NCBI GenBank assembly: GCA_012845835.1 | Contig: JABAKD010000002.1 | Location: 22,565,699 to 22,629,698 of the forward strand | Length of the DNA stretch: 64,000 nt | Reading direction: 5' to 3' | DNA from: Undaria pinnatifida | Taxonomy: Eukaryota; Sar; Phaeophyceae; Laminariales; Alariaceae | Part shown: positions 5,201-38,000 of the stretch, one piece after another | How the letters are laid out: each line of letters begins with the position of its first letter | Position numbering within the stretch: the first letter of the stretch is position 1 | The notes under the pieces: generated by a model | Database searches by the model: none | What the model saw: the letters and a program-made list of their open reading frames with translations, nothing else | What the model was told of the DNA's origin: nothing | Translations under genes and position numbers: made by a program

Positions 5201-8200
5201 CATTGTACGTCGCGACGTAGCTCCTCCTGTTTTAACCCATGTGCCCCCGCTCGAAAACGGCAGCTCCCCTACAACTCCTAACTGCTGAAAAGCCTAAACC
5301 CCAACAGCACTCGTGCTGATATATACTGACCCCTGTCGGACCTGCACGAACCATTTTTTGGAGAAGAATACTTGAGAATAATTTGGGTTATAATGTTTGC
5401 GGTAATGAAAGGCGATCGCCTCCATGTGTGACGGCACTACTCTGTAGCTGCTAGCCTGACAGCCACGGTTACCGTAGTGTCTTATGCTTGTGCGGCCTGC
5501 TATATCTGCTGCAACGTGCGCTCGCCTTTCTACACGATGATTGCTCGGGAGAAACTCCTGCCGGGGGGGGCTAGACCACGTTAGTGAGGCGTATATGCAT
5601 ATGCCACTCTCTCTACAAACCCACTATTTTGTTGGAAAGTTTTTTGCTCTAGACCTGCACGCGCTTTTTCGCAGACATCTTTCTTGGAAATCGTCAGGGC
5701 TTTTCACGGGTCAGGTCGAGTCAGGGTCAGCCGTTCCGAACCGCAATATGAAAACCTGCTGACCCGACCCGACCCGACCCGACCCGACCCGACCGTCCCG
5801 TCCCGTGAGATTTCAAGCACCTCCTGACCCGACCCCACTCGACCCGCGAGACTCGGGTCACGACCCGTGAATATAGCCCTGGAAGTAGTGTCCAAACATA
5901 TTTTCACCTTAGACCTGCACCCACGTTGGTGCGGATAAATTACTTGGAAACAGTGTGGGATATGGTTTGAAGCACAGTAGTTCAAGACTCTTCGATTTTT
6001 TGCCTCCGTGTGTGACGACTCGACCCCCTTCCCCAGGAGCCCCCAGCTGTCGAGCCAGACGCGGAGCAGCCTCGGCCTCCAGCTGCCGCGATATGGCTGG
6101 AGTCTGTGGGAGGAGAGGTGCTCTCCGACTTGGTGTACCTCCTGCTGTCGCTCCTCCGTCAGGTAAGACACGGCAGATTGGCAGATTGGAGTTTTCTTTT
6201 GGTGATTGGTGACATGGAGGAAACGCTAGGAGCTGAATGGATGAAAACGTTTGGGCGAATGGTTGGTTGGGTGATTGGGTTAATGGTTGAATGATTGATG
6301 ACATGTTTTGGTGATTTGATTTTTTCAGAGATGGGCTAGGGTTTTTGTGTAGGTACCTATTTCATTGGTATTTCCTTTGGGGCAAACGCTGTTTTTTTTT
6401 TCTTCTGGTGCCCCCTCCGTCACTCTCCGCACTCCCCATTACACCAATCACCCCCCCCCCCCTTCCTTCCCCCCTTCAATTTTCCGCGCACGCAGAGCGT
6501 TCCGATCAAGCCGCTAGTGTCAGCCGTCGCGCACGTGCTAACCCTCGTGGCGGCGCTGGCCGGCGGGGTGGCCGGGGGTACACAAATCCTCGAGCGACAC
6601 CCGGCGCTCGGCAGCCTCCTGCGCGCCCTGTTCGTCCGAGTTTCGAACCGATCGGTGCGCCGCGCCGCCTGCGCGGTGCTTTTTCGCGCTTCACACTGGC
6701 AGGCCCTCGGGCGTGACGCAAGCGACACTGCGGCGGGGGGGGACAGGGATGACGGAGCGGCGGCGGCGGCGGCGGTAGCGGCGATAGCGGTGGGGGCGGG
6801 ACCGGCTGCGGCGACGGCGGCTGCGGTGGCAGCGGCATCGACGGCAGCAAGGCGTGCGTCTGCGAGAGCGGTGACAAGGAGCAGCGGGCTGGCACACGTC
6901 CTGCTTGGCTCCCTAAGGACCGACCTGGCGCGGGTGAAGACGACGTCCTCTGCGCGCTGTGGCGGTGGTGGCGGTGGCGGCCGCGGCCGTGGGCTGTGCG
7001 TCGGGGGGGGGGGTGAGCTGTCTCCGATGCACCGGGCAAGGGGAGACGCGACGCCAATGAACGATAAGAATAATGATTGCAGCGGGAACGGGGAAGGGCT
7101 CGTGCCCGTGGTCGTGCCGCGTCTGCATCTGGTGGAGGTGACCGAATTTGTAGCTGGGCTCGTGCACGTCATGTTGGAGAGCGCTCCCACCGCCGCCGCT
7201 GCCGCTAGTACCACTGGTGCCGTTGGTACGGAGCAGCATGTTCCACCAGTAAGCAATGGTGCTCCCTGTGAAAGTACGAATGGCTCCGCTCCTGCGATTC
7301 CGCTGCAACAGCAACAGCTACTTCCCGATATTCGCGTCGGTGGTGCCCGAGCGCCGGCGCTGCCGGCGAAGCCGCCTCAACCGTCGCAACTGTTTCCGGC
7401 CGTACCATCAACGGGTGCTGCCGCCACCGCCGTCTCCACGGGCGATGGGAGGACGGCCGTTGGTAGCATTGAAGGCGTGGAAGGAGGAGGGGGAGGGGGT
7501 GTGGGGGGTGCGGACTTACCTGATCATGGATCATCCGCTGCGGCTGCTGAATGGCTCTTGGAGGAGGCGGCCAGGCGGCTGGCTGGTCACGAATTCACGG
7601 AGACGTTCAAGTGAGAAGGGGCGCGACGGCGGCGGTGGTGGTGACAGTAGTGGTGGCGTGGTTTCGGTTGCGTCGCGCTCGAAAGGGTTTCGCGGCTGGC
7701 CTTTTTAACGCCTTTGCAGCTGGAAACACGTTTTTGGTAAAAAATTACTTGGAATTAGTATAGGGAGGGGTTTGAGGGCTCTAAAGGGGTTAAATCGAAC
7801 GCGTTTGTGTGAGCGGGCTTGCGGGTTTTTGACCACGCAGGCCGCCACCTTCAGGGCGATCCATGGCTCGGCTAGAGCGAGGGCCTTTTATTGGTGCTGT
7901 GCCCGATAGAAACGATCGACGGTTGGGACTCTCGGCCGTTGAAACGCTCACCGCCGCGCCGCTTATTCGCGCGCCCGTTCCTTGTATATGCCCGCCTTGG
8001 TTATGATCGATTACCCCCCTCCCTCCCCCTCTTACTCCCTCACTTCCTCCCAGGTCGGATGCCTCGGACCGCCTCCTGGTGAGCCTCCTGCACGCGCTGA
8101 CGGTCGCGGTGGCGGGGTCCGGTCGCCGAAAACGCCTTGCGGAAACCCTTTTCTCAAGCTTGGCTTCGGCGTCCCCTCCCCCCTCCTCCACACCTGCCTC

Positions 8201-14200: not shown

Positions 14201-17200
14201 GGGAGGACGAGGAGGGGGGGGACGAGGGAGGGGGGGAGGGGGCGCTCTTGATACAGCAAGAGCACCGTGTTTGGCGTTGTCACTGTGTTAGCACTAGCAG
14301 CAGGATAAGCGTTATAACGTGAGCAAGTGTATTGGCGTCACAATTAGTACTGACTTAGCAGTAGCAGTATTTTCATTAGTAGCACTAGTGTGATCATCAT
14401 ACCAGCATGTGGCGTTAGCAGCGTGTTTTTGTTCGGTTTCTCGGTCCCGTTGCGCGATGCTGCCGAAGGCATTGTCTTGTATTTTGCGCGGCTTGTCTGG
14501 CCTTTTGGGGATATTTTTGGGTGTCATGCCTCGCCCTAATGCCCCACTTCCCCTCCCCCTCCTTCCCCAAACAGAGCATCCAAAAACAGCATGACGCGCC
14601 CATGCCGGGAGGAGGGTCGGAAGGCGCCGAGGAGGCCGATAGCATCGCTGACGACGCCAACCTGGCAGCAAACCCTGCGGCAAACATCCCCCTCCGAGGT
14701 AGAGGCGCAAGTGGTGATATCGATCGTAACAATCACGATGATGATGGTGATGACCATGATGAACATGCTCATGGTTATGATGATGATGATGATGATGATG
14801 ATCATGACCATGGCCATGGTGTTGCCTCGTCCGGCGACGCTCGGGGTTACGCTCATTCCGCCGTTGCTGGTGCTGCTGTTGTGTCGCGGCGGGAGGGTCG
14901 GGAGGAGGAGGGGGAGGACGGCCAGGAGGGGGAAGAGGAGGAGGAGAACGAGGGGAAGGAGGCAGAAGGACTTGCCGGTGATGGCGGGGGAGAGGGTCGG
15001 CCTCGGTCTCACCTGCCCTCCCGCAAGACGTTTCGCCCAAGCGAAGATAATGGTGGCGACGATGAGGGTGCAGTGGCAGTAGCGGCGACTGTGGTGGCGG
15101 GGGGGTCGGGGGCGGCGGGGAGGGAGAGGAGAGTGGGTGATGATGGAAGGTCGCGGTGGATGCCATCGTCGCCGTGCTCATCGTCAGCATCGTCGTCGCC
15201 TAATCCTTCGTCTTCCCCGTCAACTTCCTCGTCGTCGTCCTCCTCCGGGGGGGTGGGTGTGGAGAGTGCCTCGCCCATCGCCGGCGATGGGGGTGGCGGT
15301 GGTGCTGATAGGGGTAGCGACGACGAGCGAGAAGAGGATGAAGAGGGCGGCCGTGACGGTGGTGACCGTGGGGCACGAGGAACGGGGGGAAGGGGGCGAG
15401 AGGCAAAGGGGCGAGGGCCGGGACCGGCGGGAGCGGAAAATTTTTCGGCCAGGCCGGTGGATAGAGACGCGGTTCCCACTGGGTACAGGCTGAAGGGTAT
15501 TGTGGTGAGTTTGGAACTGTGCGAGAGAGGGAAGAGAGGGGGGGGGGTTAAACACTGTGTGTTTGGCGCTATGAGTTTACGAGTGTTTGCACTACTGCTT
15601 TACTGTACCAGGTAGTTGTTTAGTTCGACGAGGGTGGGTCCTTGCGTGGGTGCTTGCGTGGATGGGTGGGTGGGTGGATGGGTGGGTGTGTTGCTATTCC
15701 GTGCCTGTAGAGATACCAGGTGTGCTATCGACAGTTACTTTTAACAGTGCTTGCGTGGGTGCTTGCGTGGATGAGTGGGTGGGTGGGTGGGTGGGTGGGT
15801 GGGTGTGTTGCTATTCTGTGCCTGTAGAGATACCAGGTGTGCTATCGACAGTTACTCTTAACAGCGCAATGTTAGTGTTCACGACACCCGAGAAGCAGTT
15901 TACCTTTCGACGACCAAGACCTTCCCAACAGGTGCGAGACGGAGGTATTTCTGTACTTGATGCGTGCCTCTGTCTGCTAACCCTCCCCTCCCCCCCCCCT
16001 TCCTTCCCCCTTCGCTGGTTTGAATGGTTGTGTGCCCGCGAATTAAGGCTCATCAAGGTACCGCCGATCACGGGCACTGCTACAGCCTCATCCGTGTTGA
16101 CGGAGACAGGTGGCTCGAGTTTAACGACCGCCGCGTTACCCCGTACAACCCGGCTAACATCCCCAGAGACTGCTTCGGCGGAGCTACGGTGCCCGAGGTC
16201 TGTTGCAGTGTGGGTGGTGTTGGTGACGGTGGTGGTGCTGTTGTATTGGTGTTGGTGTTGGTGTTGGTGCTGACGGTGGTGTTGGTGCTGTGTTGCAATT
16301 TTGGTGCCCCCCGCTCTGTAAGCTGCACCGTTGCTTTTTACACCTACCGTCGTCCCCATCCCCGCTCTCACCTCGGCCTCCAAATAACATTGGCGTCGAC
16401 TCCCACTGTTTCCAAAATAGCTTGTTAATACAGAGTGTGTTGGTTTTGTTGTGAGGGTGGTGGTGGTGATGGTGTTCATGTGGATGTTGGCGTTTGCGTG
16501 TGTTGTGGTTTTGGTTGGTGGTGTGGTATGTTGATGCTGGAGTTGGTGTTGATCTTGGGTGATAATATGTGTTAACGTTGGTATTGGTGTTGGCGCCGTT
16601 TGGTATTGGTGTTGATGTCGGCGTTCTTCTTCGCTCAACAATCTCTGTGTTGGAATATTTGCCCCCTCCTCGCGTTGGACCTCCCGACACAGGCCGGAAA
16701 CCCTGAAGTTGTGGGCGCGGGAAATCTCCACGAGACCAATGCCTACCTCCTCCTCTACGAGCGTACGCCAGCGCCAACGAGCAGACACCGGGGCCGCTCG
16801 CTGAAGCCGTCTATGGTGCTGCCTTCGGCTGCCAGCTGGAGCGCCATACCCCCCGAGACGTCTCAGTCTAGTCACGAGCAGGCCCCTGGTGCGTCCGCGG
16901 TGGCAGCAGAGGCGGCGACTGGAGGAGTTGGGGGGGAAGCGTTGGCTTTGGCCGCGGGACCAACGACATCGTTAGCCTTAGGGTCGCCACGTGTGTTGTC
17001 AAACGGTGGTGCTGCTTACGCCGCGGCTACCTCTGGCGGCTCATCAACGGTGGCAGATGGCGGTGGCAATAGTGGTAGTAACGTGGAATTCCCCCCCGTC
17101 GGAGAGGAAGGGGCATCGACTGAACCCGCTACTACTTCTGCCGCCGCGGTTGCTGCTGCTGCTCTGAAAGAGCGCGCTTCCCGGGAGTCCGCGGCGGAAA

Positions 17201-20138
17201 AATCGAACGGTGCCGCGCCGCTCGCGCTTGAAGCGAGGAGCGTGGAGGAGAGTTTGGTAGGAGGAAGGCGCAAGCAGTTTAGCGGGCGGACGGAATCGGC
17301 AGACTGGGGCTGGAGCTCCGACTGCGGCGTGAGGTAAGAGGGGAATGGCGTGAGGAGTGAAGGTTTGGGGAATGGGGGCGGGTGCTTGGGGCCTCGGTCG
17401 CTCGTTTGCGAGCTCGCGAGGTCACCCGCCCACGGGTTAGCGTTGTGCGATATTTCTATTTTCCTCCCGTAGGGTAGCGCGGGGGCGGGGGGCACACACG
17501 AGCGCATACACACGAGCGCATACGAACGAGGGCAGCGTAAACGTCCCACGCGCGAGAAGACACCGTAGCTCTTGGGTCAGTGGTGCTTGCCCTATCAATT
17601 TCGCCGTCGGCATCGCCCCCCCCCCCCCCCCCCCCCGCGTGCGCGCGCGCCAACCTCACCCCTCCACCCCGAACCCCAACCCAACACCCAACTCAACCCC
17701 ACTCCCCTATAAAACCCCAATCCCATTTCCCTCACCCCCCCACCCCCCCCACTCCAACCCTACCTTTGTTCCACCCCCACCCCCCATCCATCCCCTCACC
17801 CCCGCTAATGTGCCTGATAGCCACCATCGCTTGCTCCTGCTATAGCCACCATCGCTTGCTCCTGCTGTTGCTTCTGTTCGCGTTCTCTTTTCTTTTTTTC
17901 TCTCTAGGGCCGAGCGGTCGGGGGGGGGCGAGGTTTACATGTCCCTGGATGTTCTGAACCAGGTTTGGACGGCGGAAATGGCGTTTCTTCGCGACATGTA
18001 CCTGCTCGACGCCGACTTCTTCCGGTTCGTGTGGGGCTTGCTCCAGCAGCCGGAGGCCGCGGCGGCGGCGACCGCCTCCCTGGCGGTCCATGCCGGGACG
18101 AAGGTGTGTTAGGGGAGGAAGGGGGAGGGGGGTCCATGAATTTTGTGCGTGTCTGTGATTTGGGTATGTGTCCATAATTTGATGCGTGTGCCCCGTCATT
18201 TGGACATCACTGCGTCCTTTGTCTCGGGGGGCGGGGGGTGGATCCATGTTATGTGTGTGTCTATGATTTGTGTATGTGTCCTTGGTTTTTTGTGTGTTTG
18301 TCTATGATCTATGATTAGGGAATTCCGGTACTCTTCCTCTCGGATGCGACGGTCGGATCCTGACTACTCACGTCCTCTGCCCGCACCTTCTTTTTTTCTC
18401 CCATCACGTTCTAAATTTCCTCGTCGCGGCGTTCGTTTTGGTCGCCGAACGTACAGGTCGCCGTGGAAATGGTGGCGCACGCACGAGCGAGCTCGTGCGT
18501 CGGGCCGTGGTGCGGCCGTCTGTCGCAACTGGTCGGGGCCCACCAGCACGCTGCGGACAGCGTCTTGGCACTGCTCGCTGCCGGCCGAAGAGAAGGGTCT
18601 AAGGTGCGTCGACGGTAGCGGTAGCGGTATGATCCGCATGAGGCGTGTGAGGCATCATGTATGAATTTGGGGCGTTGGTTTTGGTATGTGTGCGCGGATG
18701 TCTGCGCCCGCGGGGGTGGGGGGGGGGGGAGGGGGGGGGCTCGAATGTTGCCGGTAAGGTTATTTCTGCTGCCTGCACGTCTCGCTCCCGTTCGTGGTAC
18801 CCGCTGACAGTAGCGCAACACCACGGCCACGTTATTCTCCGACCGACGTTGCACGGTGTCGTTTTTTTTTTTACTGCTGACGTATTTTGTTATGCCCCTC
18901 GTTTCCACTCACTAGCACCACCCCCACCCCCTTAACCCCTCCCACCATTGCCGATAATGCTACCGCAGGCCGGATACCTGAGAGACGTTCTAGTTTCCTG
19001 CCCGCGGGCATCAACCCGCGCGGCGTTCGAACGCCTCGCTACGGACGCCGTCGCCCACGCCGACACGGAGGGTGATCAGGCCGGGGCGCTGTCTCGAGTC
19101 CTACTAGAGCTTCTGGACGAGACTTCTCACGGAGCAGCGCGTGGTGCTTCTCCGGGGGGACTAGCTCATGTTGCAAGGGTGGTATCAGCAGCGGCGGCCG
19201 CCCCTGGTGACACCCAGCGCGCAGTTCTGATCGCCGGACAGGCGGTACCCCGCCTCCTCAACTGCCTGAACGCTCGACACGCGTACGAGATTAACGCCTC
19301 TCCGCGCTCGAACGCACAGTCGTCGCCGGCGACCGTGCCGGTAGGCGGGGCCGCGGCGGCTGCAGCGGCGGCAGCGGTGGCCCAGGCCCAGGCGCTGCAG
19401 AACGTGGGGGGTTTCGAGGCTGTCGTGAGCGCGGTCGAGCGCTTGCTCGCCGGGCCCGGTTTCAGCGTGGAGGTGGCGCTGGGGGGCGCGGAAGGGGCGG
19501 ATTCTGTGACTGACCGGAAGTTTCTCCTGGCCGCGCTCCAGGCGTGCCCTCACGAGGCAGCGGGCCTGCTCACCCACCTCGTGTGGCGTGGATCGCGGGC
19601 GGGTGTAGGAGCGGGGGTGACGGAAGCCTCGGCTGTTGAAGATGGCCGAGGGGATGGTGGGATATCGGGAGTGGACAGGTTTCCGACCGCCGAGGAAGAC
19701 AATGGTGCCCGGCAAATCGGAGAGCGAGCCCTCTCGGCGCTTTTGGACATAGTGGTGGACGCGCGGCGAGCGTTGCTGGGGACGAGCAGCGCGGCGGCGG
19801 TGGCGGCCGCGGCTCCGGGGTCATCGCAATCGTCGGCGGTGACAAACGCGGCCTTAGAGTTTAGCTCCGCCATGGGAGTCCTTTCGCGCGTCTTGCATCT
19901 GCGCGATGGCGAAGTGCAAGATAGGTTAGAGGTAGCGCTAGGACGGCTGGCGGCGACGACGCGGGGGGGCGAGGAGGAGTGGAGGTCGGGAGGAGGGGGG
20001 GGAGGGTGTGGGGGGGGTACGTATCAGACGGGGAGGCTATTGGCCAGCCTGTTCGTGCACATCCCAGAGGCGCGGCCGGTGCTGTCTAGGTCGCCCCTCT
20101 TCCAAGGGCCGCGGCGGCGTGCCGAGCCATACGCTTGA
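200..20138 (+). CDS. Giant ubiquitin-specific protease, USP9X/USP24/USP34 type (5' end outside window)
   Basis: Cysteine protease that removes ubiquitin from substrates; this family has a USP domain between long helical (ARM-like) arms. Exons: 200-2221, 3022-3138, 3578-3703, 4256-4399, 4724-4867, 6037-6162, 6496-7610, 8054-8807, 9281-9436, 10861-10932, 11618-11772, 12961-13021, 13204-13260, 13983-14180, 14575-15504, 16048-16197, 16693-17333, 17908-18103, 18457-18603, 18969-20138. All junction phases agree and give 2826 codons plus TGA. Seen: Cys box GATCYMNSLLQQLY (Cys about residue 1520 of the visible part), Gln/Asp-box-like QKDVNEF, CEKC knuckle, LIVHLKRFEF, His box GHCYSLIR (about 2069), EFND, and NAYLLLYER. 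Exons 2-8 and 18-20 are helical, as in the USP9X arms. The model starts at an internal acceptor (branch-like tctactaaac, then cag), so the true N-terminus lies to the left. Family assignment is firm; which paralogue is not. Confidence 0.9.
2665..2985. repeat. Three tandem copies of dispersed repeat D1
   Basis: Three related units in USP intron 1, with cores near 2690-2735, 2770-2845 and 2905-2975. Each has actacttggaa-like sequence, then atcgaccactcaatcggt, ttcacagctgacata and (in two) gcaatagttttat. Relatives occur at 11392-11475, 39878-39945 and, inverted, 43183-43325. No coding capacity is seen. Confidence 0.65.
3148..3305. repeat. GGT/GTT trinucleotide tract
   Basis: Imperfect GGT and GTT trinucleotides fill the 5' half of the intron after USP exon 3022-3138. 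The open frames across it (Val or Gly runs) are repeat artefacts. Confidence 0.85.
3727..4095. repeat. TTTGG pentanucleotide satellite
   Basis: About 370 bp of tttgg units with ttcgg and gttgg variants in the USP intron between exons 3578-3703 and 4256-4399. A multiple-of-five unit keeps several frames open and yields spurious Trp/Phe/Gly/Leu proteins. Confidence 0.9.
5718..5885. repeat. CCCGA-type repeat with flanking unique arms
   Basis: Begins cacgggtcaggtcgagtcag, then a pure gaccc run (5759-5793), then gtcccgtgagattt..aagcacctcctgacc and gactcgggtcacgacccgtg. The same order, including gtgagatt and cacctcctgacccg, recurs at 40325-40530. It is therefore a mobile or dispersed unit carrying the pentamer, not a simple microsatellite. 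Confidence 0.7.
8054..9436 (+). other. USP exons 8-9: start of catalytic domain, Cys box
   Basis: Exon 8 (8054-8807) ends YDPTSVLKESGQHVGLQNQ. Exon 9 (9281-9436) continues GATCYMNSLLQQLYHVPKF. Together they give the canonical GLxNxGxTCYMNS signature, with the nucleophilic cysteine codon TGC at 9290-9292. The intron falls exactly between NQ and GATC, one residue block before the active site. That intron (8808-9280) carries an 18-19 bp minisatellite. Confidence 0.92.
8930..9170. repeat. 18-19 bp minisatellite (ttgctggctcgcttgcg)
   Basis: About 11 units of ttgctggctcgcttgcgt in the intron just before the catalytic-Cys exon. In one frame it reads FAGSLA repeatedly, which is a by-product of the unit length. 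Confidence 0.88.
11392..11475. repeat. Dispersed repeat D1 copy
   Basis: Contains gcagcttgcaaagatgagta, tcgaccctaaatttatcgaa and cccagctgacgtatttg, shared with 39878-39945 and, in reverse, 43270-43325. It lies in the USP intron before exon 11618-11772. Confidence 0.6.
11785..12615. repeat. Roughly 820-bp CCCGA pentanucleotide satellite in USP intron
   Basis: An almost perfect gaccc array of more than 150 units, starting 13 bp after the donor of exon 11618-11772. A few phase slips (gaccga) and variant units (accag, tccgg) mark subdomains. The antisense strand reads as long Arg-Val-Gly-Ser-Gly open frames, which are not genes. Confidence 0.95.
12843..12955. repeat. GAC/GAT/GGT trinucleotide tract
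   Basis: An imperfect acg/atg-rich tract immediately before the acceptor of USP exon 12961-13021. It replaces the usual pyrimidine tract on the + strand, so the acceptor rests mostly on frame and phase agreement. Confidence 0.6.
14575..15504 (+). other. USP exon 15: 310-residue acidic/His-rich insertion inside catalytic domain
   Basis: Lies between MELDMSPWTLE and YRLKGIV, where related USPs have a much shorter linker. It contains a dense Asp/His tract (DDDDDDDDHDHGHG, about 14740-14820), Glu/Gly tracts, Ser/Pro tracts and Arg-rich stretches. It ends in conserved RLKGIV, spliced at GTG|GTGAGT to AHQGTADHGH. It is a multiple of three, and both ends rejoin the fold in frame, so it is probably a disordered loop rather than an annotation artefact. 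Confidence 0.8.
15641..15865. repeat. Recent 109-bp tandem duplication in USP intron
   Basis: Copies at 15641-15748 and 15750-15865. Each has cttgcgtgggtgcttgcgtg, a tgggtggg run, then an almost identical segment including gtgcctgtagagataccagg and gctatcgacagttact. They differ mainly in the length of the gtgg tract. Confidence 0.9.
16048..16197 (+). other. USP exon 16: catalytic His box
   Basis: Encodes AHQGTADHGHCYSLIRV followed by WLEFNDRRVTPY and CFGG. The general-base histidine is codon 16075-16077, and the third catalytic position is the N-D of EFND. The usual GHYYS reads GHCYS. The acceptor (gcgaattaag) is not pyrimidine-rich directly upstream and the donor (GAG|GTCTGT) is weak, but phase and homology fix both within a few bases. 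Confidence 0.88.
16203..16640. repeat. GGTGTT-rich intron repeats
   Basis: Two blocks (16203-16300 and 16440-16640) of imperfect ggtgtt/ggtggt units fill most of the intron between the His-box exon and exon 16693-17333. No coding sequence is seen. Confidence 0.75.
16693..20138 (+). other. USP exons 17-20: end of catalytic domain and C-terminal arm
   Basis: Exon 16693-17333 holds the last USP strand (NLHETNAYLLLYERTP), then about 190 low-complexity residues. Exon 17908-18103 has VWTAEMAFLRDMYLLDADFF and FVWGLLQ, as expected just after the USP domain in the USP9X/34 class. Exons 18457-18603 and 18969-20138 are helical, leucine/alanine-rich arm sequence. The stop is TGA at 20136-20138. A Gly-rich tract near 19980-20020 could hide a mini-intron. 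Confidence 0.82.
17808..17868. repeat. 27-bp tandem duplication before acceptor
   Basis: Two adjacent copies of atagccaccatcgcttgctc plus ctgct, upstream of the polypyrimidine tract of USP exon 17908-18103. Confidence 0.85.
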
Positions 20139-22989
20139 GACAGCGGTGGTGGTATTTGGGAGAGGATAATTGATTGTTTTTAGTTCGGAGAGGGCATGTA
20201 AAGCGCAGGTTGTTGCCATGGTTCCCTCTCTGCCACCCACCCCCCCCTCTCTCCCTCCCTCCAAGAGTGGTGGAGTGGAGGGGTGGGTGCGGCACGTACG
20301 CGTAACGCGACGCGGCGTAGATCGTTGCGGCGGTCGGCGCGGCTTTGTTGAGAACTGTGCTGCGCCCTCCCGGTGTCCGTTAGGAGTGGGTGAAGTGGGT
20401 GCTGCTTTCTGCTGGTCGTGACCGACCGACCGATAAGTCGTCGGACAAAAATGAGATTCCTTAGACGAAGCGCCTGCTTGCCTATGGGTTTGCCTGCCTT
20501 CTTAGCTTGCAGTCTGCCTGCCTGCGCCAGCAATGCTTGTGTGTGGTTTATGTTTTGTTTTCGCAATGACAGCGGCAGTAAAACCAGCAGCCGCAGCAGC
20601 AGCGGCAGCAGCAGGGGCGGAAGCAGGGGTAGCAGAAGAAGCAGGGGCGGAGCAGGGGCGCAGCAGACTGCCCGGGGGATGGGGGCGAACGAGATCTGTA
20701 GAGGGACTAATGTTTTGAAGAAGGGATAGAACAGAGAGCGTGGCGCAGTGTAGGGTAAGGTTGGGTAGCGTAGGATAAGCAATATTTGTGGCTAGTTTTG
20801 TCTTCGCTGGCTTTTTGTTTTGGCCTGCACGCGGGCTGCAGACAGTCAAGTTAGAGAGGGGTATGGGCAACCGTCCCGTCCCGTCCCGCAGCTTGCATGT
20901 TTTGTAGGCGGCTGAGATGTTGTGGCTTTATTTTGACGTAATGGAGTCTGGAGCGAGTGGAGGGACGGAGACGGTTCGCATGGGGGGGCGCGATGATGCG
21001 ATGCCGGCCTTCCGAAGACCCTCCGTAAAAATGTACCCATGATACAGTAGTAGTATGGTAAAATTTATAGGTCCCCTTCCTTACACAAAGCCACAATATA
21101 TATACTGGTTGAAAAATATTCCCCTTTAAAGCCCAAAAACTCTCCCTATAGGAATTCCAACCATTTCCCCCAAACACGAGTTTCAAGCTGTAAAGGCGTT
21201 AACCCCCCCCCCCCCCCCTGCCTGGTTGGTGAAAACCCGACGTGCTCCGTCCCGGCATAGTAGGGATGCGAGGATCTGTGGTCACACGACTACGGCCATG
21301 CCCAAATTGAGTACCCTCCCCCTCTTACGGTCATACGACCACAGCTATCCAAAAAATGAAAACACCCCCTCCCCCCCAACTCTTCGGTCAATGCTGCTGT
21401 GTGGCGTGGTTGTCATCGTCCGCCTGCCACTGTTTATGCAAAGCGACCCCTTTCGCATAGACCCGTATCGTAAGTCTCCGGTAACGAACCCACCGGCGGA
21501 TGCGTGCCCCGAAAGCGGGGTGGCATCTGCTAGACCCTCTCCCCGCGCGCTCCGGCCGAATCGATGGATTTTGTGTTCCTGGCCCAACAGCGCACGGTTA
21601 CTCCCTAGAGTTTACTCGGATTCTGCTACTTAAACGGGAATAGCGTGCTCTTTCCACCGTGTGTTAAGCCGTGCTCGTTGCACTATGCAAGAAGCCGTGC
21701 CCGTTACTCGAACAGTTAGGGGGCGTGATTGAATTCAACTTTGATTCCAGTACGCGAAAATGCCCCTTTTGGAACCTGTTTGGCAAGAAATACCTCGTAC
21801 TCTGGCACAAAGGTTGGCTGGCATGCTCAAGAGCGATCTATAGCGAGCGCCAGACGCGCATGCATCTCCCCACCTATCAAATGTTGTAAATTCGCACCAG
21901 GTTCGTCCCAGCGCGAATCGAACACCCTAACAAGTACTTGGCACGAAACAGGCGCCCTGGGCAATACAGTAAAAAGTTGATTTCAAGATAGATAGCCATG
22001 ATTTCATTGAGATCATCGCTGTTGTTAAGGAATTAGTGGGGCATTAGTCCGTCTGACCACTTGCAAGAGGTCAACCAATAGCTTACCCGAACTAAGCTTT
22101 GTAACACTCTTTCCCCCTGAAACGGCGGGATAGCAGGTCGGCGAAATATACGGGCGGGCCTGTCAATATCCAAGCGGTTTCATTTCCTGGGTATACCTTC
22201 GAAGGCATGTGAAACCCTTTTATATCCAGCCGTATCCCATGTCATACGCCTTGTTAGGCTCCCAGGGGAATACCACGACACTAGCCCACTCAATTGGCTC
22301 AGCGGAGCACGAAAAGCTATACTTCCACGGACCGATATTCCAAAACAAACAAAAACGTGCGTCCGGTTTTGTGCGTTCGTATCCGCTAGATAGCCTGTCC
22401 GCTTTCGAGTCGCATAGGAGACGAGCTACTCGAATGAATTTGAATACGATATTTCCAATCACCCAAAAGTCCGTCGTGGTCATAAACAAACGCTGCAACT
22501 TTACGATGCAGTTCCAACCTACCCTTTATAATATTAACACGAGTAAGTCCATCGTGCCGCCACGCGTCGCGTTTGTTTCTTCCTCTGGAGTCCCCCAAAG
22601 CGGTTCGTTCACATACATGGCAAAAAAAAAAACAGCCAAAACGCCCCAAAAAAGGCTCCAGTACAAATTCGTACCGGCAAAGAGAGGCTGGTGAGGCCGA
22701 AGCGCCGAAACGAGACCCAAGACAGGTCGAATGGGGCCCTGGGCAAAAGAATCCCGACAGAGGCCGAACGCAGGTTCAAAAGGGATGGAAAAGAGGCGCC
22801 CGAAGGAGGCCGAATGAAGAAAAATAGACCGACCCTTCTTAAACCTTGGGTACATGTTTTAATTTTTTTCATCGCGCATACAAGGTGCAGTTTTTCCGCT
22901 GCTCGCGTTCGATTTCCATTGCATTTTAATGCCGAAAAAGGGGGCCGAGAAGAGGCTAAAGGATGGAGGTGCAAGCGGGTGGCGCCGGG

Positions 22990-23232
22990 ACAGGCATATA
23001 AAAACGGCGCTGTGAATACAACTGCGGCGCGGAGTCGTTCGAGAGCCCTTCCGCCTGCCATTCCGTCGGGTATCGTTTTCGTCCATCATGTCGCCACGTA
23101 ACCCGCCGAGACAGGCGAAAAATACCGCACTATGACTTCAACTGCGGCGCGGAGTCGTTTGAGAGCCCTTCCGTCGGTCATTCTTCCGTCGGTCTCATGT
23201 TCGTCCATCATGTCGCCACTTAACGCGGGGAA
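22990..23232. repeat. 120-bp tandem duplication
   Basis: Copies at 22990-23109 and 23110-23232 share caactgcggcgcggagtcgt, gagagcccttccg and cgtccatcatgtcgccac. Divergence is modest and no ORF is preserved. Confidence 0.85.
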
Positions 23233-23644
23233 ACAAACATTTTCAAACACACGAAATTCTCCAATCGTCTTCCCCCCCCCCCCTTAACCCTTCCCGGCAT
23301 TTTAGGAATGCCAGTGTTTATGGTCATACGATTACCGTCATGAATGAAAAGAGTACACACACACCCTCCATCGCCATCTTTTTTTGGCCATCCGTCACTT
23401 TGCTTTGCTCCAAGCTCAACTCGTAAGAGCTTTTCGCACTCACCGACCTTCTGGAAAGGCCGTGATCACCGGTGCCAACCCATCTCATGCCGGTTTCCTT
23501 CAGCTTTATCGCACATAGAGTGCAGCATTCCCACTGCTTGTCGAATCTCCCCAAAGTTTGCTATACATAACTCACGCTCCAACGTGTTCAGCGACACGAT
23601 ATCATGTCGCTGAAAACGCGCAAAAAAACGCCTTTTGTATATTC

Positions 23645-24225: not shown

Positions 24226-24580
24226 GCGGTATGGAAGTGCTCACGGCTGGCGAATGCCCCAGGACAAGCACGCAAAGCGCGCAGAGCCGATACCATCCAA
24301 AGCACAAACAAAAAAACGACATAAAAAGGACCCCCCCCGTGTCCTTCCAGCCTTGACTCGGCCGTTAGCGCATTTCTTACTCCACCAAGCCCATAACCAA
24401 CAAAGGAGGAGGAAACCGCAGGCCAGCGCCCTCCTCATTCAACCCAACCCTACCCTTGCGCTGGGTATAACCCCCATCCTGCACCCTGCACAGCCAGCCC
24501 TCCCCCCCCTTTCCGTCCGTCCCTCCCTCTATCCTTCCCTTCCCTCCCTCACCCCCCCCCCCTTTTCCAACCGTACTGTA

Positions 24581-24764
24581 GAACTCCCACCGCCCTCTGC
24601 GCGAGGAGGTCGATCGCAAGCTGGGCGGGCGAGAGATCGGTGAACCTTCTCATGCCCCCTCCCCCCTCACAACTATCCTACGGAAATGCGGAACTCCCGC
24701 CATCTTACGCGAAACTATCCGCTGCAAGCTGGGCGGGCGACAGATCCGTGAATCTTCTCACGCC
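24581..24764. repeat. Tandem duplication of the galactosyltransferase 3' coding end
   Basis: Copy A (24581-24655) and copy B (24691-24764) share gaactcccgcc, cgcaagctgggcgggcgaga-type sequence and gatccgtgaa.cttctca. Copy B contains the real stop codon (24705-24707) and the last codons, TDLSPAQLAADSFA. Copy A lies downstream of the stop on the minus strand and would read TDLSPAQLAIDLLAQ. Confidence 0.85.
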
Positions 24765-27700
24765 TCCGGAGACCTCCCCCGTTCGACAATATCTACTCTT
24801 GTACGATACCTGCGCGGCGTTCATCGCCCGCAGCACCGCGCACAACGCGTACCCCTGCCTTACCCCCGTCGCGGCGGGGACGTGCTCCTCCGTCATCTCC
24901 TCCTTCCCCTGCGGGTTTGTCCGCCGAGGGTGCACTCGGAGCGTTGCCATGGGGCTCAACATGTAGTCCGGGGGGGGAAGCTGGAGGGCGTCCGCTGAGC
25001 AGGTGAAGAACTCGTGGTTGCTCTTGTGTCGCTTACCGAACATGTACGTGCCGACTCGGTAGAGCTACGCACGACACGGTTTAGCGCGAGCAGGTGGCCG
25101 AACCGAACCGAAGCGGCGGCGGCGGCGGTGGAGGGGGTAGAAGGGGGGGGAGGGGGAAGGGAGGAAGCGGGGTGGAGCGGGGGATCCGGAGATCAGGAGG
25201 GGGGGGCAGAAAATGTGACCAACAACGAGGACACTCCTACCACCAAAGAGTAGATATAATGTGTATATAAGTTGACAGATAGACAGGCCTCGTAGATCGA
25301 CAAATACAGACAAATACCAGGTAGGCCTCAAAGTTCCCATATGCAACAAGCAGAAGAAATATATGAATATCACTGCTTGCGCGTGTAGGTCTACCAAACT
25401 ACCCCCCTCCCTCTCGTCGGATCGGATGTGGGATATCTTTTGTACTCTTGTCCAGAGCGCGTTGCGCGGCTCACCTGGCAGTAGTGCACGATTGGAGGAA
25501 TGTACTCGCCGAGGTTAGCCACCGCAGAGGCATCGCAAGCTTTCGTCCCTAAACGGTCCACCAGAGGCCAACCCTCGCTGGCAGCCATGCTCGAGTCCGA
25601 TACCATCAGCCCGTACGCCACGCGATGCCGCAAGCTGCCAATCACACGCAAAAGGAGGAAGAGACGGAGAGCACACGTTAGATGAACAAAAAAGAAGACA
25701 AAAACAGCAAAAAAGTATACACTTTTATTTTTCAAAAGTAGGAAAAGTTTAAGATCGATCCCGTACAAGGTATTTTTCCGTTCGGTGCGGCTCGTAGCAC
25801 CGGTGTCGGGCAGAGACAGCCAGAAATCCGCCGCACGGCGCCTCCGTCGCAAACGAACTACCCCCTCCCTCCCCCCCCACGACTCCTCCCCCTCCGTCTC
25901 CTGTTCCCTCCCTTCTCCCTCCCTCTCCCCTGCCGCCCTCCTCCCTCCCTCCCCCCTCCCGTCCTCCTCCCTCCCCCCTCCCGTCCTCCTCCCTCCCCCC
26001 TCCCGTCCTCCTCCCTCCCTCTCCCTCTCGCCCTCCCCCTCCCGCTCCTTTCCCTCCCTCCCCCCCTCCCGCCCTCCTCCCCATACAAGAAACTCACATC
26101 ACCGTCACCATATTTACCTCCACCTTCACCTCGGATATAAAGGCATGTGCGTGCACAAACCTAACCACCGAAGAACATACGTTCACTACAGTGCCATAGT
26201 AATACTTTATTGACATTTCTCCGAAAGCTTTTTTTTTCTTCCGCTAAATTTTCGCTGAGAAAATACTTCGCTGAGTTGCTTTCTGCCGAAAACAAAATGA
26301 CGTGAACTTTTTGTTCGCTACTATATACAATGTTCCCCTTTCGGGACGGGTTTAAAAAAAAATTGATATCCCCGGGGCGTCTTAAGTCCAAAAGGGGGAA
26401 AACAGGCGTTTCAATGATATCTGCATCCAACGATGTCTACAGGTGGAGAGCGACAGTAGTACCCTGGTACTGCTTTCGCTGCTGGGGTATGCTTCGTATA
26501 CCTGGTATGAGGTCCGACGATGTGTGTTTGACTGTTGCTTTGGCACGTCTTAATGTTGCCGTGGTTCGACCTCCTGCTGCTGCTGCGCAGCAGCAGCAGC
26601 CACACACACGTACACTGTGACTACGGGCACAAACGCGAGAGCTTGGAGCACGGCTGCCGTTGTATGGTTGCTGCTGTACTGTTGTACACTGATCTTGTGG
26701 CTACGAGGCTGAGAGGGGGCTTTAGCACAACAAAAAAAGAGGCTTTTCTTGATCATCTTGTGAGCCTATTGCAGCACACACTCCACGTACGTACGAAGCA
26801 CACAAACATAACACACAAAAAAGCACCGTCCGTGCCCGTTACGAAAGAGTGTTGCTGGTGCTGTGTGGTGCTGTATAGCAGACAGCAGAGAGGGTAAAAG
26901 CAAATGGACGGATGATGCTGTACAGCGGGTGGGAGAGGGTCGGAGAGCGGAGCGAAAACCAAAACGTGAGAGGGGGGCAGGCTATTTAACAAAAAAATAT
27001 ATATTGGGGTTTCCATGCACCTTCTCGGCTCAGCGAGGCAGAACACACAACCGCTTGACAAAAAGAGCAAGCTCAGCGACGTCTGATGCTCTGAGCACCG
27101 TCACGGAGCTCGGCCGGGATCGATCCAGACATGCGTCGTACTGTACCGATGGGAGTCTTGCTTGCCTCGCAGCTGAAAGCACGAGAAAACAACCTCGGTC
27201 GCCGGAGAACAGCAATCCAGAGAAAAAATGTGCATATTTTACATATATACACATATTTCGTCATCACTCAACTCACTTGAGGTGTGCGGCAGCGATGCAG
27301 AAACCGTACATCTCGGCCAAGATGCTCTGGTGACCCTTGTACACCCTCGCCGCAAGACCTACCCAGAGGTCCAACACCCTCGCCCAGTCTCGGGGGTGCA
27401 TCATGTAGGGGGGGCCCACGGGGTACACCGCAGCTGCCTTCTGTACGGAAACCTGTCCATGGGTGCGAGAGACATATGGTCATGGGTTTCATGCCTATTA
27501 TTTTTGTAAAATACTCTAAAATGCCATTGCTTCATATTTTTCAACAAAAAGGCTTTTCCGTATAACCGGGAAAATTTTTCAAGTCCTCATTTTTTAGCCG
27601 TTTAGGAGTCCGATGGGGTACATACACTCTTGCCGCCTCCTGCGCGGAAACCCGCCCACGGGCGAGAGCGGCGTGGGTGTTAATCGGCCTCTCGTACTTT

Positions 27701-28160
27701 CTTTGCGAAAACCTAAAAAAAAAATCTTTTTCAATGATATGGAGAAGCATATTCGCAAAATAACGTTTTCATTAGTATTATAACGCATTCCCGCAAATCC
27801 GAGGGGTTTTCCACGCGTCCCCGGTGTGCATCATGTAGGGGGGGGCGGGGGGGGGGGGGGGTACACAACTGCCGCTTCCTCCGCGGAAACTTGTCGACGA
27901 GTGCGAGTGGCATGGTCATGAATGTCTAGAAATGAATACCTGGCCCTTTCTTTGCGAAAATCTAATATATCTATATATGAAGGCTTTCCGGCCAATCCAG
28001 GAAAAAAATCGACCGGTATGCAACCCCAGATTTTAGGTGGGTAGTAGTAGTAGTAGTTGTAGTTGTAGTTGTAGTTGTAGTTGTAGTTGTAGTTGTAGTT
28101 GTAGTTGTAGTTGTAGTAGTTGTAGGTGAGTTATAGTTGTAGTTGTAGTAGTAGTAGTAG

Positions 28161-28191
<31 letters not shown>

Positions 28192-31100
28192 ATTTGGTTT
28201 TGTACCGGCTGGATTGTTCTCCTCGGATGGACTCTTGCACGTGGCGAAGCTGAGGTCTGGCCGTCTCTGCTCGTGAGGCGGCGGCGGCACAGCTGCCAAT
28301 CGGCGACGATATTTGACCCGGACAAAAGCGCGTGGCATCACAACAGACTACGCCATAAATCACGCCATAGCAAAGGACTTATATACAAAAAAAAACATGC
28401 ACTCAGGTAAAATAAAAGAAAAACGCTCGACCAGCAGCGCCCCCCTCCCCTCTCGCTCCCCTCCTCCCTTCCTTCCCCCTTGCCACGCCCCCACTCCTCC
28501 GCATTCGTCGCACCTGTCTAGCAGGAGTATCCGGCCCTAAATTCTCCGTGATTTCTGGCAAGTCTTTCCAAGCCGCCCACACGCCCCCCAGCCCGTAAAA
28601 CTGCCCCACCGGATGCCCCTCGACTACCCACTCCGGGCCTTTTGCCATTTCCTCCTCATGCCACAGCATTCGCCGTGAGTCCCCTGGTTACGTGGGGAAA
28701 GGTCAGCGGGGGTGTGGAGGGGGTTAAGAGGGGGGGAGTGCGGGGGGGGGGGTGCACGGGCGGGCGGGATAGGGTTGAAGGGGTTGAGCGCGGGTGTGGG
28801 GAGGGGAGGGGGGGGGGGAAGTCCCACTCCGCCAACAAAAAAAAGGATGCGTTTGAAAACTCCGAAGAAACGATTCCCCCCTCCCTCGCCCGCCCTTCCC
28901 TCCCTGTCCCTAAGAGAAAACACGAAAATTTCCAGCACGCATGCGTCCGCTGCGAACCAAAACCTCAAATCGCAGCAGCCCATCCACGCCTCACCGACGT
29001 TGGGCGATAGCTTGGACATGAGGATCATGTCCGGGTCGATGAGAGCTATTACCGCTTCAGACACCGGGGGTTTGGCGTTTTTGAGGAAGTGAGCCATCCC
29101 GTTCGGCTTGTTGTAGAAAAGGAACCTGTCGCGCGAGTCGGGGATCGGGGGTAAACAGGGCCGGGGCGATTACTTTTTCTTCGTGAGTTTCTAGTCCATC
29201 ATGCATTCCTTGCTTCGTGCAGTCCTTTCTTCATTAGATTCCGTTCTTGATGCATTCATTCATTCCTCCATTTCCGTTCTTGCAGATATTCGTCTATTCG
29301 TCCATTGTTTTCCCCATTCGCTCAGGTATTGATTCGCGCGTGTCTTCCTTTCTTCCTTCTTTCCTTTCTAATTTTGCTTTCCCTCCTGAATCCCTTCGTT
29401 CTTGCCTTCTAGCCTCCCTCCCTTCCTTGCCCCCTTCTTGACTTCCCTCGTGTCACACATACCACAATATTGTAATATATAAAGGGTAGAGCGGGGGAGG
29501 GGGGGGGGGGGGGGGGGGGCTTCTCTATTCCCAACGTCGCCGGGCTTGACTCACTCTTCTCCCGTCTCAGGGTCTAGGCTGTAGTCGGGCGTGAAGTGCA
29601 CCCGGAAGCGGTCGGGCTGCTTGTCCATCACAGCCTGCAATTCCCTCTTCTCCTCGTATGAGCACCCGCTGGCGACCCGCGTTACGGCACCCTGGTCCAC
29701 AATCTTTGAATACGACGAAAAAAGGCATAATTTACAAAACAAGGAAACCCACTTAAGGTGTGAGATCGAGGATTTCGAAAAATGACACAAGGAAGGCGTG
29801 TTTTTTACATTCAAAACAAAAACGAAAACGAAAAAAAACGCAGCTGCGTAATCGAGGAGTTCGTCGGAACAAATATTAGGAAGATGTGTGTGATACGTCG
29901 ATCGCGCGTTTTACAGGCTGTACATGGCTATTTATCACCACTGCTCCATTTTTCCAACATGATATAGTGCAAATGCTGCCCGAGGCAAATGCTGCCTGAG
30001 GCCGATTCACGAACGAATTAACTTGGTACCTGGTACATATACTGCGTGAAAACGTTTTTGCACATATGATTAGCCGAAGCGAACGCGCGGTGGCTCCTAT
30101 CCCCCGAAGGTCGGGTCCCTGTGGCGGCCCCCGTGGTATCGGGATGAAAACCCGGCTGCCCCTCGGAGGTGCGCGCAACCAAATCGCGTGTTTCGGAGTG
30201 ACATACTGCACCCGCCAACTTTGAACACACCCACACACGACCAACCAACTTACAACCGACACCATAAGCGCCGATGCCAAAATTGGCGCCAAGGCGCGGC
30301 TGCTGTTGCCTTGAAAGAAGTCAACGTCATAATCGAGTTTGTCGTAACAGGTCAGGCCCCACAAACTCTGTGGTCGAAAATAAAGTCTCACGGAAAATAC
30401 ACTGAGCAATAACTGTCCAGAAAAAAAGAAACGTGGATTTCCAGTTTCCCGTTACCACCGCTACGCGAGCCCGCCGCAATGCCCTTGTTGCTAATACCGC
30501 GGAAAATTGCAACCTACGACGTACCGCGGCCTACATTACTACTCCCAGGCTTTTGTCGCAGACTCGCCGGGTTCCACCGCAGCTGCGGAGCTGAGAGGTT
30601 TGATGGCCGTCACGACTCCAGCACCCACAGGTAACCGTCTTCCTCCCCACGTCACGGGGGAGGGAGACGGCTACCTTTGGGTACACGATAAGCAACTGCC
30701 ATCTCACTCTTACTTGTTGTCGCGACGGAACCCGGTGAGTCCCCGGCGAAAGGTTGTGTGAGTAGCCAGCAAGGTAGTGGTAGTAGATAGCAGCCTCCGC
30801 AGAACTACCGCAGCAACGAGGGCGACGCTACGGGCACGCGTGCGCGTAGCGGTGCTTATACACTAGGAACTGAATTTCCACGTATTTGCTCGATAGTCTT
30901 TTCCAGCGTCATAGTTCCAATTTCGGGGTTAGGCGCTTTCGATAGCCGTCACAAAGTGGGTCCAACCCTGACAGGCGTACTAAAGCGACAACTCCAAAAT
31001 CGGCGGCAAGGCACTGGCGAAGACTATCGCGCAAAAGAGCGGAGTTCCAGTTCCCATTAGCACCGCTACGGGAGCCCCCGCCACAATGCCTTCATTGCTG

Positions 31101-35098: not shown

Positions 35099-38000
35099 AT
35101 GCATGCTGAAGAAACTTCTGCTGCTGCCGACCTAAGCAGCACAGATTTAGGCAGCCCGGAAAGGCGGGAGGAACCGCCTGTCTCGCCCTCTTCCAGGGGC
35201 GAGAGCGCTTCATCCCTGGAAAATTATTCGGTGGCGGTGGAAGACGACGACGAACATATCCAGGAATCCCAGCCTCGCACCCGACGCCGACGCCCCGGCA
35301 GCGCAGGCAGTGTGGCCGACGAAGAGACACCGGGCCCCCAAAAAGCGTCCAGCAAGAAGGATGATGTCACGGCTTGGTTGTCCCTAGGGAAGCAGGCAGC
35401 GGAGTCTAAGTGTCGCGAGCTCGAGGCCGAGCTGGTGGAGGCCCGGCATGAACTGACTAAGCAGGACGCCAGGTTCGTGAGCTGTGTGTGATGTGCGGTA
35501 CGGTGTGGTATACATGGCCGTGGTCGCGGCGAAGGACTGGCTGAACCCACCATACTTGTTTGTTTATTTGGTACATTTATTAATAACCAGTGCTCCTCTC
35601 ATTCGATGCTACGATAGGCTATCGGGTGTGCTGGCTATATACGTCGTGTACCAGGTCTAGACAACACATCATACCTCTGTAGCTCTGTCGTGGTATGATA
35701 CCAGGCACCAGGTACATTCCATTGGCACGCAATGTTATACCAGCAGGTACCAGGTACATCGTGGTCATGTTGGCACACAGCAGTACCCTGTATGGCATGA
35801 CGGCCTTATCCGCGTCTATGTGCCAGTACAGCAGTATTACAGAATACCTTTGGTACAGAGCACCCGGGACGCTTGGTGTAGTGTGAGAGACGAAGTCAGA
35901 AATAATGTGCTGCCCACCCTTGTCCGGTCTACCCGTACCAGATGCTACGCGTATCATATATATGGTAACTGTGACTGATGCTGCACTACTAGAAGTAATC
36001 CGTCGATTTCGTATGACGTTATACCAGATAATGTCGCGCAGTACGAGTAGTACTGCTGATCCCACAGGCGCACTTGGTAGGTGAATTCGGGCAGGGTGGG
36101 TAGATTAGGATAGGATAAGGTAGGGTAGGGTAGGGTAGGGTAGAGTAGATGACGTTAGTGTAGGGCAGATCAACGCAGGGTAGAGTAACGTAGATTAGGG
36201 TGGGGGGGGTAGGATGAGGTTAGGGTGCTGCTTTTACATCATTCCATCCCAGCCGAAGACGGACTATAGTGCGCACAAGAACCGATCCCGGGGATGTACG
36301 GAGAGTCGAGGGTTGTGACCTTTCGTCTTCTCGCTCGAAGACCAGCAACCAAGACACGAAGCGGTTGGTTTTCAATGCGTAGCGCGGTATAAACACTGTT
36401 GTGCCGGTGCCTGGCCCATGAAAAATCATATTTAATAGTTTTGCTTGTGAGCCCTATCGGCCGCGGAGAAGGCTATATTGTATTCAGTCTGACCGGAAAT
36501 CAATTATCCAAAACACGGTCTTCACATCGCTCTCTCGCGCGTGCACGGCCTCAGCCCTGATACCAAAAAGGAACGATGCTACAGCAGTACTTCCCGAAAG
36601 GGACGCGTGGTCAATGGTCAAATGACTAAGGCAAGCAAAACATCAGTACCCCTCCCTCCCCGACGGTGCTCCGTTCCGGCTTTGTAGGTGATGCGAGGGT
36701 CTATGGTAATACGAAACGGCTACGTGTGCATGAAATGAGTACGCCCCCCCCACGATTCTCCGTCTCGAAAGGGACGCCTAGTCAATGGCCAAACGACGAC
36801 GGCAAGCAACAACTGAGTACACCCCTTCCCCCGCCGTCTTCGTTTACGACGGTCCGTGCACGAGGAGGGTTCCATGCCTCCTGCGTGCGGGTGGAATTAT
36901 AGTATTTTTTTGGTTTTGTTTTATTTTATTCATCCATTTATTATCCTCGCACTATTAATACTTTCGCCCTCACTCCTAGTAGTAACTCAGATCCGAGGTC
37001 GCATAGCGGGCCGTCCTCCCCCCTCCCCACTACCGTACGTGCCTTAATTTTTATCGCGAGAAGAGTTCAGCTTTTGTTCCCTCGTCGACTCGCGTCGAAT
37101 TGTACCTACCCACGCTGCTAGCCGCTCTCGGCAGTTGATCCCTTCTTTGCATTTTTGCAAATATTATAGTAAAAATCTCACCACGGTGGGAATCGAACTC
37201 AAGGACCAACGCTAGTCGCATTCGACGGCAACCACTACACCACCGGGGCGACCGGCTATAATATACACATATCTATGTAGTTATTGTCTACCAGGTAGAT
37301 ATCATGACCCACGCGAGAGGCTGTCACCATCCCGCCGTGCCTCCACCATTTATGATGTGCGCTGCCTTTTTAGCCTGTCTTGGCGGTCTCAGGCAAGATT
37401 ATAGTTGAGTAGATTACGTGAGAACAACTACCGGTACTACTGTAATACTACCCGCACTATATTATTTTAGTAATCCCACTGTTGTTACATTGCTACTGCT
37501 GCTATTTGTTCCACAGTACTCCCAATTACCGATATTTCTACTTTTACTACTACTGCTACTACGTCAACCGCAAAAACAACAACCGCTGTGTTTTCTCTTT
37601 ATCTTGCGCAGCATGCGGGTGGCTCGCGAGAAGATTCGACACCTAGAAGCGGAGAACAAGGGGCTGCTAGCGGCGGCGGAGTTTCGGGAAAAGGAGGCAT
37701 GTTCCGTGAAGGAAGGGGCGAGCATCGCGGAGGAGCGATCCCACGCCAACGAGAAAGCGTTGGCGAACGCTCTGGAACAGGCACGTCCGTTAAGTTTCTT
37801 GTCGACTGTTGTTGGAGGCTGTTGGTAGGCTGTTTTTGCCTACCTGCCGTTGCCTGCCCGATAGGGTCTCGTGCTGTTAGAGGCTGCTTGTCGGCTGTAT
37901 TTCCCCCTCCCTGCCGTCGCCTACCCTGTAGTTTCGCTCCTTTTTCTTGTTGTACTGCTTTTGCAAATTTTTCTTGAGGGGCTACGAAAACGGCTTGTCG

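Follow-up and report, generated by a model that had tools for sequence, protein, structure and literature searches.

In a potato RdRp gene, a tandem duplication across an intron-exon boundary made a new intron, as outlined by Ma, Lan and Niu (2016, PMC4974935). Exons duplicated in tandem, and mutually exclusive exons with them, are in general outline well described in animals (PMC9013439), and accounts of brown algae describe, for shuffled LRR exons, exon duplication inside genes.

Here we report an array in a 64,000-nucleotide stretch of Undaria pinnatifida DNA (the window). The array consists of three diverged tandem units on the minus strand, each composed of an intron end and the start of one and the same exon, and this three-unit duplication is real. 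Unit 1 contains the start of the real exon, and units 2 and 3 (copies 2 and 3) are decayed. The units are direct copies holding both an intron end and an exon start, which is how a partial-exon tandem duplication is recognised, with the caveat that the intron part of pair 1/2 is non-significant by itself.

The HPAT-like gene and its three units

A protein model was joined by eye from minus-strand open frames at about 24.8-29.7 kb of the window. The joined protein matched PF23452 (HPAT) in Pfam (E 5.1e-07) over residues 154-226 only, with 29.8 bits against a curated cut-off of 23.9 bits. No NCBIfam family was found at E up to 1, and nothing meaningful was matched in the PDB. The predicted gene product is HPAT-like (PF23452); HPAT and serine galactosyltransferases are kin. 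The name galactosyltransferase comes from the sequence-only reading and would be a putative one. The predicted limits of the real exon, which begins at residue 152 of the model, are placed by an open frame (27273-27479), by the splice motifs located around it and by the Pfam match, starting at the exon's third residue. Its numbering as 'exon 5' presupposes one further exon upstream. The putative host intron carries the donor CAG/GTGCGA and the acceptor ACAG/GTTTCC (slash, splice site). A GTAGTT microsatellite of about 25 units (28041-28188) adjoins unit 3 inside this intron.

Table 1. Positions in the window of the array, its host exon and intron, and other local duplications
Feature	Position	Strand	Description	Basis
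Unit 1	27387..27602	-	real exon start and adjoining intron	self-alignment, shuffle test
Unit 2	27603..27816	-	decayed copy with GG in place of the acceptor AG (27653-27652)	alignment, shuffles, splice motifs
Unit 3	27817..28030	-	decayed copy; AG one base off its original place (27891-27890), frame interrupted by the C tract; outer limit (~28030) approximate, the GTAGTT repeat coming next	
Real exon of the HPAT-like gene (putative limits)	27277..27452	-	176 nt, phase 0 entry, GTGAGT after its end	open frame, splice motifs, Pfam match
Putative intron upstream of the real exon	27453..28513	-	contains the two decayed copies	splice motifs
Further local direct duplications	22983-23235; 15689-15863; 36592-36836; 2697-2991; 18123-18297; 5641-5959		most outscore the array	

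The units, of about 215 bp each, align in register, with an intron portion of 140-165 nt in each. A 54-nt segment occurs as three direct copies (27424, 27623 and 27862); compared with the central copy, the two on either side show 67% and 74% identity. Exon-like sequence in the units as cut is 49 nt long (copy 2) or 74 nt long (copy 3), the exon itself measuring 176 nt. For each pair of units, local scores were compared with those of 2000 dinucleotide shuffles, C/G runs of at least 6 being masked. Whole units scored 50 (pair 1/2), 51 (pair 1/3) and 61 (pair 2/3), the respective shuffle maxima being 36, 29 and 33; not one of the 2000 shuffles attained the score of any pair. The self-alignment outside the poly-C, named beforehand as the check, thus showed similarity above chance. 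Exon parts alone were also well above chance (3, 0 and 0 of 2000 shuffles attaining the score for pairs 1/2, 1/3 and 2/3). For the intron parts alone the outcome was mixed: the shared intron flanks claimed by the sequence-only reading were borne out for pairs 1/3 and 2/3 (2 and 0 of 2000) but pair 1/2 by itself was at chance level (425 of 2000). This last value is what speaks for chance similarity produced by the C tract; the masked shuffles refute such an artefact for the entire array, no match scoring at least 20 arose when the masked window was shuffled ten times, and we regard the probability of this explanation as practically nil. The array was not among the repeats reported by Tandem Repeats Finder at a score of 50.

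In the genome (511,146,479 bases in 68 contigs), all six matches of the joined protein at E up to 0.01 were pieces of the HPAT-like gene itself, and a paralogue was therefore rejected as the source of the copies. A dispersed repeat was likewise rejected, since the 721-base region matched only itself in a genome search that skips very common words. The exon alone gave one extra genome match (E 0.065, 38% over residues 5-38), probably due to chance. Scanning the genome with the PF23452 profile produced no match, a result which is uninformative because 14 control genomes gave none either. Viral and prokaryote collections yielded 9 and 91 pattern matches respectively, none of them confirmed as relatives.

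Decay of the outer copies

Both outer copies have lost the original AG at the expected place. In copy 2, the acceptor site reads GCGG/GTTTCC compared with ACAG/GTTTCC in the real exon, the GG being the counterpart of the AG at 27454-27453. The corresponding site of copy 3 is ACAAGTTTCC, with ACAAG in place of ACAGG. Two acceptor lesions had been proposed from the sequence, AG to GG in one copy and a one-base loss after AG in the other: the first is confirmed for copy 2, while the change in copy 3 would most simply be a G-to-A substitution, which places an AG one base downstream with no loss of a base. Copy 3 had also been said to read PPYMMH and VSAEEAAVVYPP in frame. This does not hold: a C15-G-C8 tract separates the two, VSAEEAAVVYPP belonging to frame 0 and PPYMMH to frame 2. 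Since the assembly may have the length of this tract wrong, the acceptor change is more secure than the frame break. Direct copies, unit alignment, masked shuffles and acceptor comparison together support the description of the locus as decayed tandem duplicates crossing a splice site; the feature had been correctly located and in part over-interpreted.

The copies are most likely skipped in splicing and decaying as intron. They might instead have kept some activity, either competing weakly as acceptors or being spliced in as alternative segments: copy 2 has a CAG/GAG twelve bases inside which keeps the frame, and a candidate AAG/TTTCC is present in copy 3, though the frame is not kept there. 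A clear donor was not seen in either copy and copy 3 would be out of frame, and we judge a present activity of this kind to be quite improbable.

Selection on the copies was assessed by comparing their exon and intron parts. Between copies 2 and 3, the exon start is identical at 24 of 29 sites; pairwise, identical intron sites number 28 of 46 over 50 nt (p 0.071) and 61 of 85 over 100 nt (p 0.325), and the adjoining intron is identical at 20 of 38 on the MAFFT alignment. The contrast between exon and intron is absent in pairs 1/2 and 1/3 (p 0.41 to 0.81). The exon parts of copies 2 and 3 thus do not appear robustly better conserved than their intron parts, as would be the case under drift, and the figures may give at most a hint of past constraint on these two copies. 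Sites shared by copies 2+3, 1+2 and 1+3 number 5, 2 and 1 in the exon and 4, 3 and 11 in the adjoining intron. The former favour a closer 2+3 and the latter a closer 1+3, two conflicting signals on the order of duplication. Distances between copies vary from 0.20 to 1.09 by region and pair, too unevenly for the copies to be dated.

A partial exon and its probable origin

The exon-like parts end far short of 176 nt and are directly followed by the intron part of the next unit. No counterpart of the exon's 3' part (the last ~100 nt) or of its donor was found in copy 2 or 3; a mutually exclusive exon would be complete and have both an acceptor and a donor, which is true of neither copy. The real exon would be the source of the array, since the copied segment begins where the protein family match begins.

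The locus had been proposed to hold relics of mutually exclusive exons, and a related explanation would have whole exons, mutually exclusive or cassette, duplicated, used and later deprived of their 3' parts and acceptors. Protein-like text does survive in the copies (VSAQEAARVY and VSAEEAAVVY) and the MAFFT contrast between exon start and adjoining intron leans the same way, but pairwise this contrast is non-significant, and the region folds no better than shuffles as RNA (17 of 20 shuffles folding at least as well). The units abut and the 3' part is absent twice, so that a whole-exon origin needs a near-identical loss twice, independently. Relics of mutually exclusive exons are therefore not retained, and the broader explanation is in our view very unlikely. 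The other proposal, a failed exon duplication, applies only loosely, the duplicated part being a partial exon without donor.

We consider it highly probable that a partial-exon duplication across the 3' splice site gave rise to the array, the outer copies having become intron, lost their AG and drifted. Two local duplications of about 215 bp would have spanned the 3' splice site of the host intron. A full exon with a donor would then have been possible only from the copy joined to the remainder of the exon; the sole complete exon lies at the inner copy, and transcripts spliced to the inner acceptor would therefore have stayed functional. The two outer copies would have turned into intron, and with the original AG lost and the sequence drifting the outcome would be a lengthened intron and no new exon. 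Counting against this partial-exon origin are the chance-level intron parts of pair 1/2, the conflicting order signals and the hint of constraint on the MAFFT alignment. It is very unlikely that copies 2 and 3 once contributed translated exon starts, as alternative segments with other donors, before their acceptors were lost, or that they still compete as weak acceptors and thereby tune the gene.

Local duplications and comparison with known systems

The masked window was compared with itself for copies 100-500 bp apart with a score of at least 20. Among the 11 matches, three fall in the array and eight elsewhere, at seven places; six of these eight outscore the array's best. One of the eight, at 24566-24767, is a second duplication in the HPAT-like gene itself: at its 3' end, the final part of the last reading frame (MRRFTDLSPAQLA / VRRFTDLSPAQLA) recurs immediately downstream (24566-24659 and 24676-24767, 71% identical).

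Nine stretches of 10 kb were sampled from the genome at round coordinates on contigs 1, 2, 13 and 26. By the same self-comparison, stretch L004 gave six matches of score at least 20. The eight others were scanned with a different tool and without shuffle control (L007 and L009 from 5 of 8 families): by reading, six of them (L005-L010) each hold one or more direct pairs that are not simple repeats and lie 100-500 bp apart, and two (L011, L012) hold none. Diverged direct repeats were seen at L009:502-1252 and 3690-4841, L010:1166-2123 and L004:6693-8311, most of their spacings falling within 120-490 bp. Local duplications are common in the window and look frequent in the genome, and their frequency in the window supports an ordinary local-duplication origin of the array. 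The host genome appears rich in local duplications and the array changes no model; it is a readable case of intron growth by duplication over the intron's own 3' splice site, after which the outer acceptors decayed. How often introns grow longer in this manner could be learned from a count across the genome.

Compared with systems already described, the array shares with the potato case, as that report presents it, a duplicated unit made of the 3' end of an intron and the 5' part of the next exon. In potato, however, ten nucleotides distinguish the copies, and RNA reads prove that the inner intron is spliced with both exon pieces retained. The copies of the array, by contrast, are old and have lost their acceptors, and the exon starts that were copied have apparently turned into intron. 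An intron gain of the potato type is disfavoured here because the expected AG is lost in both outer copies. The array resembles the animal systems, so far as their general account goes, in having copied exon sequence inside an adjacent intron, but here only part of the exon is copied, without its donor. With the LRR exons of brown algae, as outlined for them, the array has in common the duplication of exons inside genes; those exons are complete, 72 bp long and of phase 2, and they are used and undergo alternative splicing, in contrast to the partial copies of the array. The array is thus ordinary for this genome, a fresh example of an already described kind of duplication.
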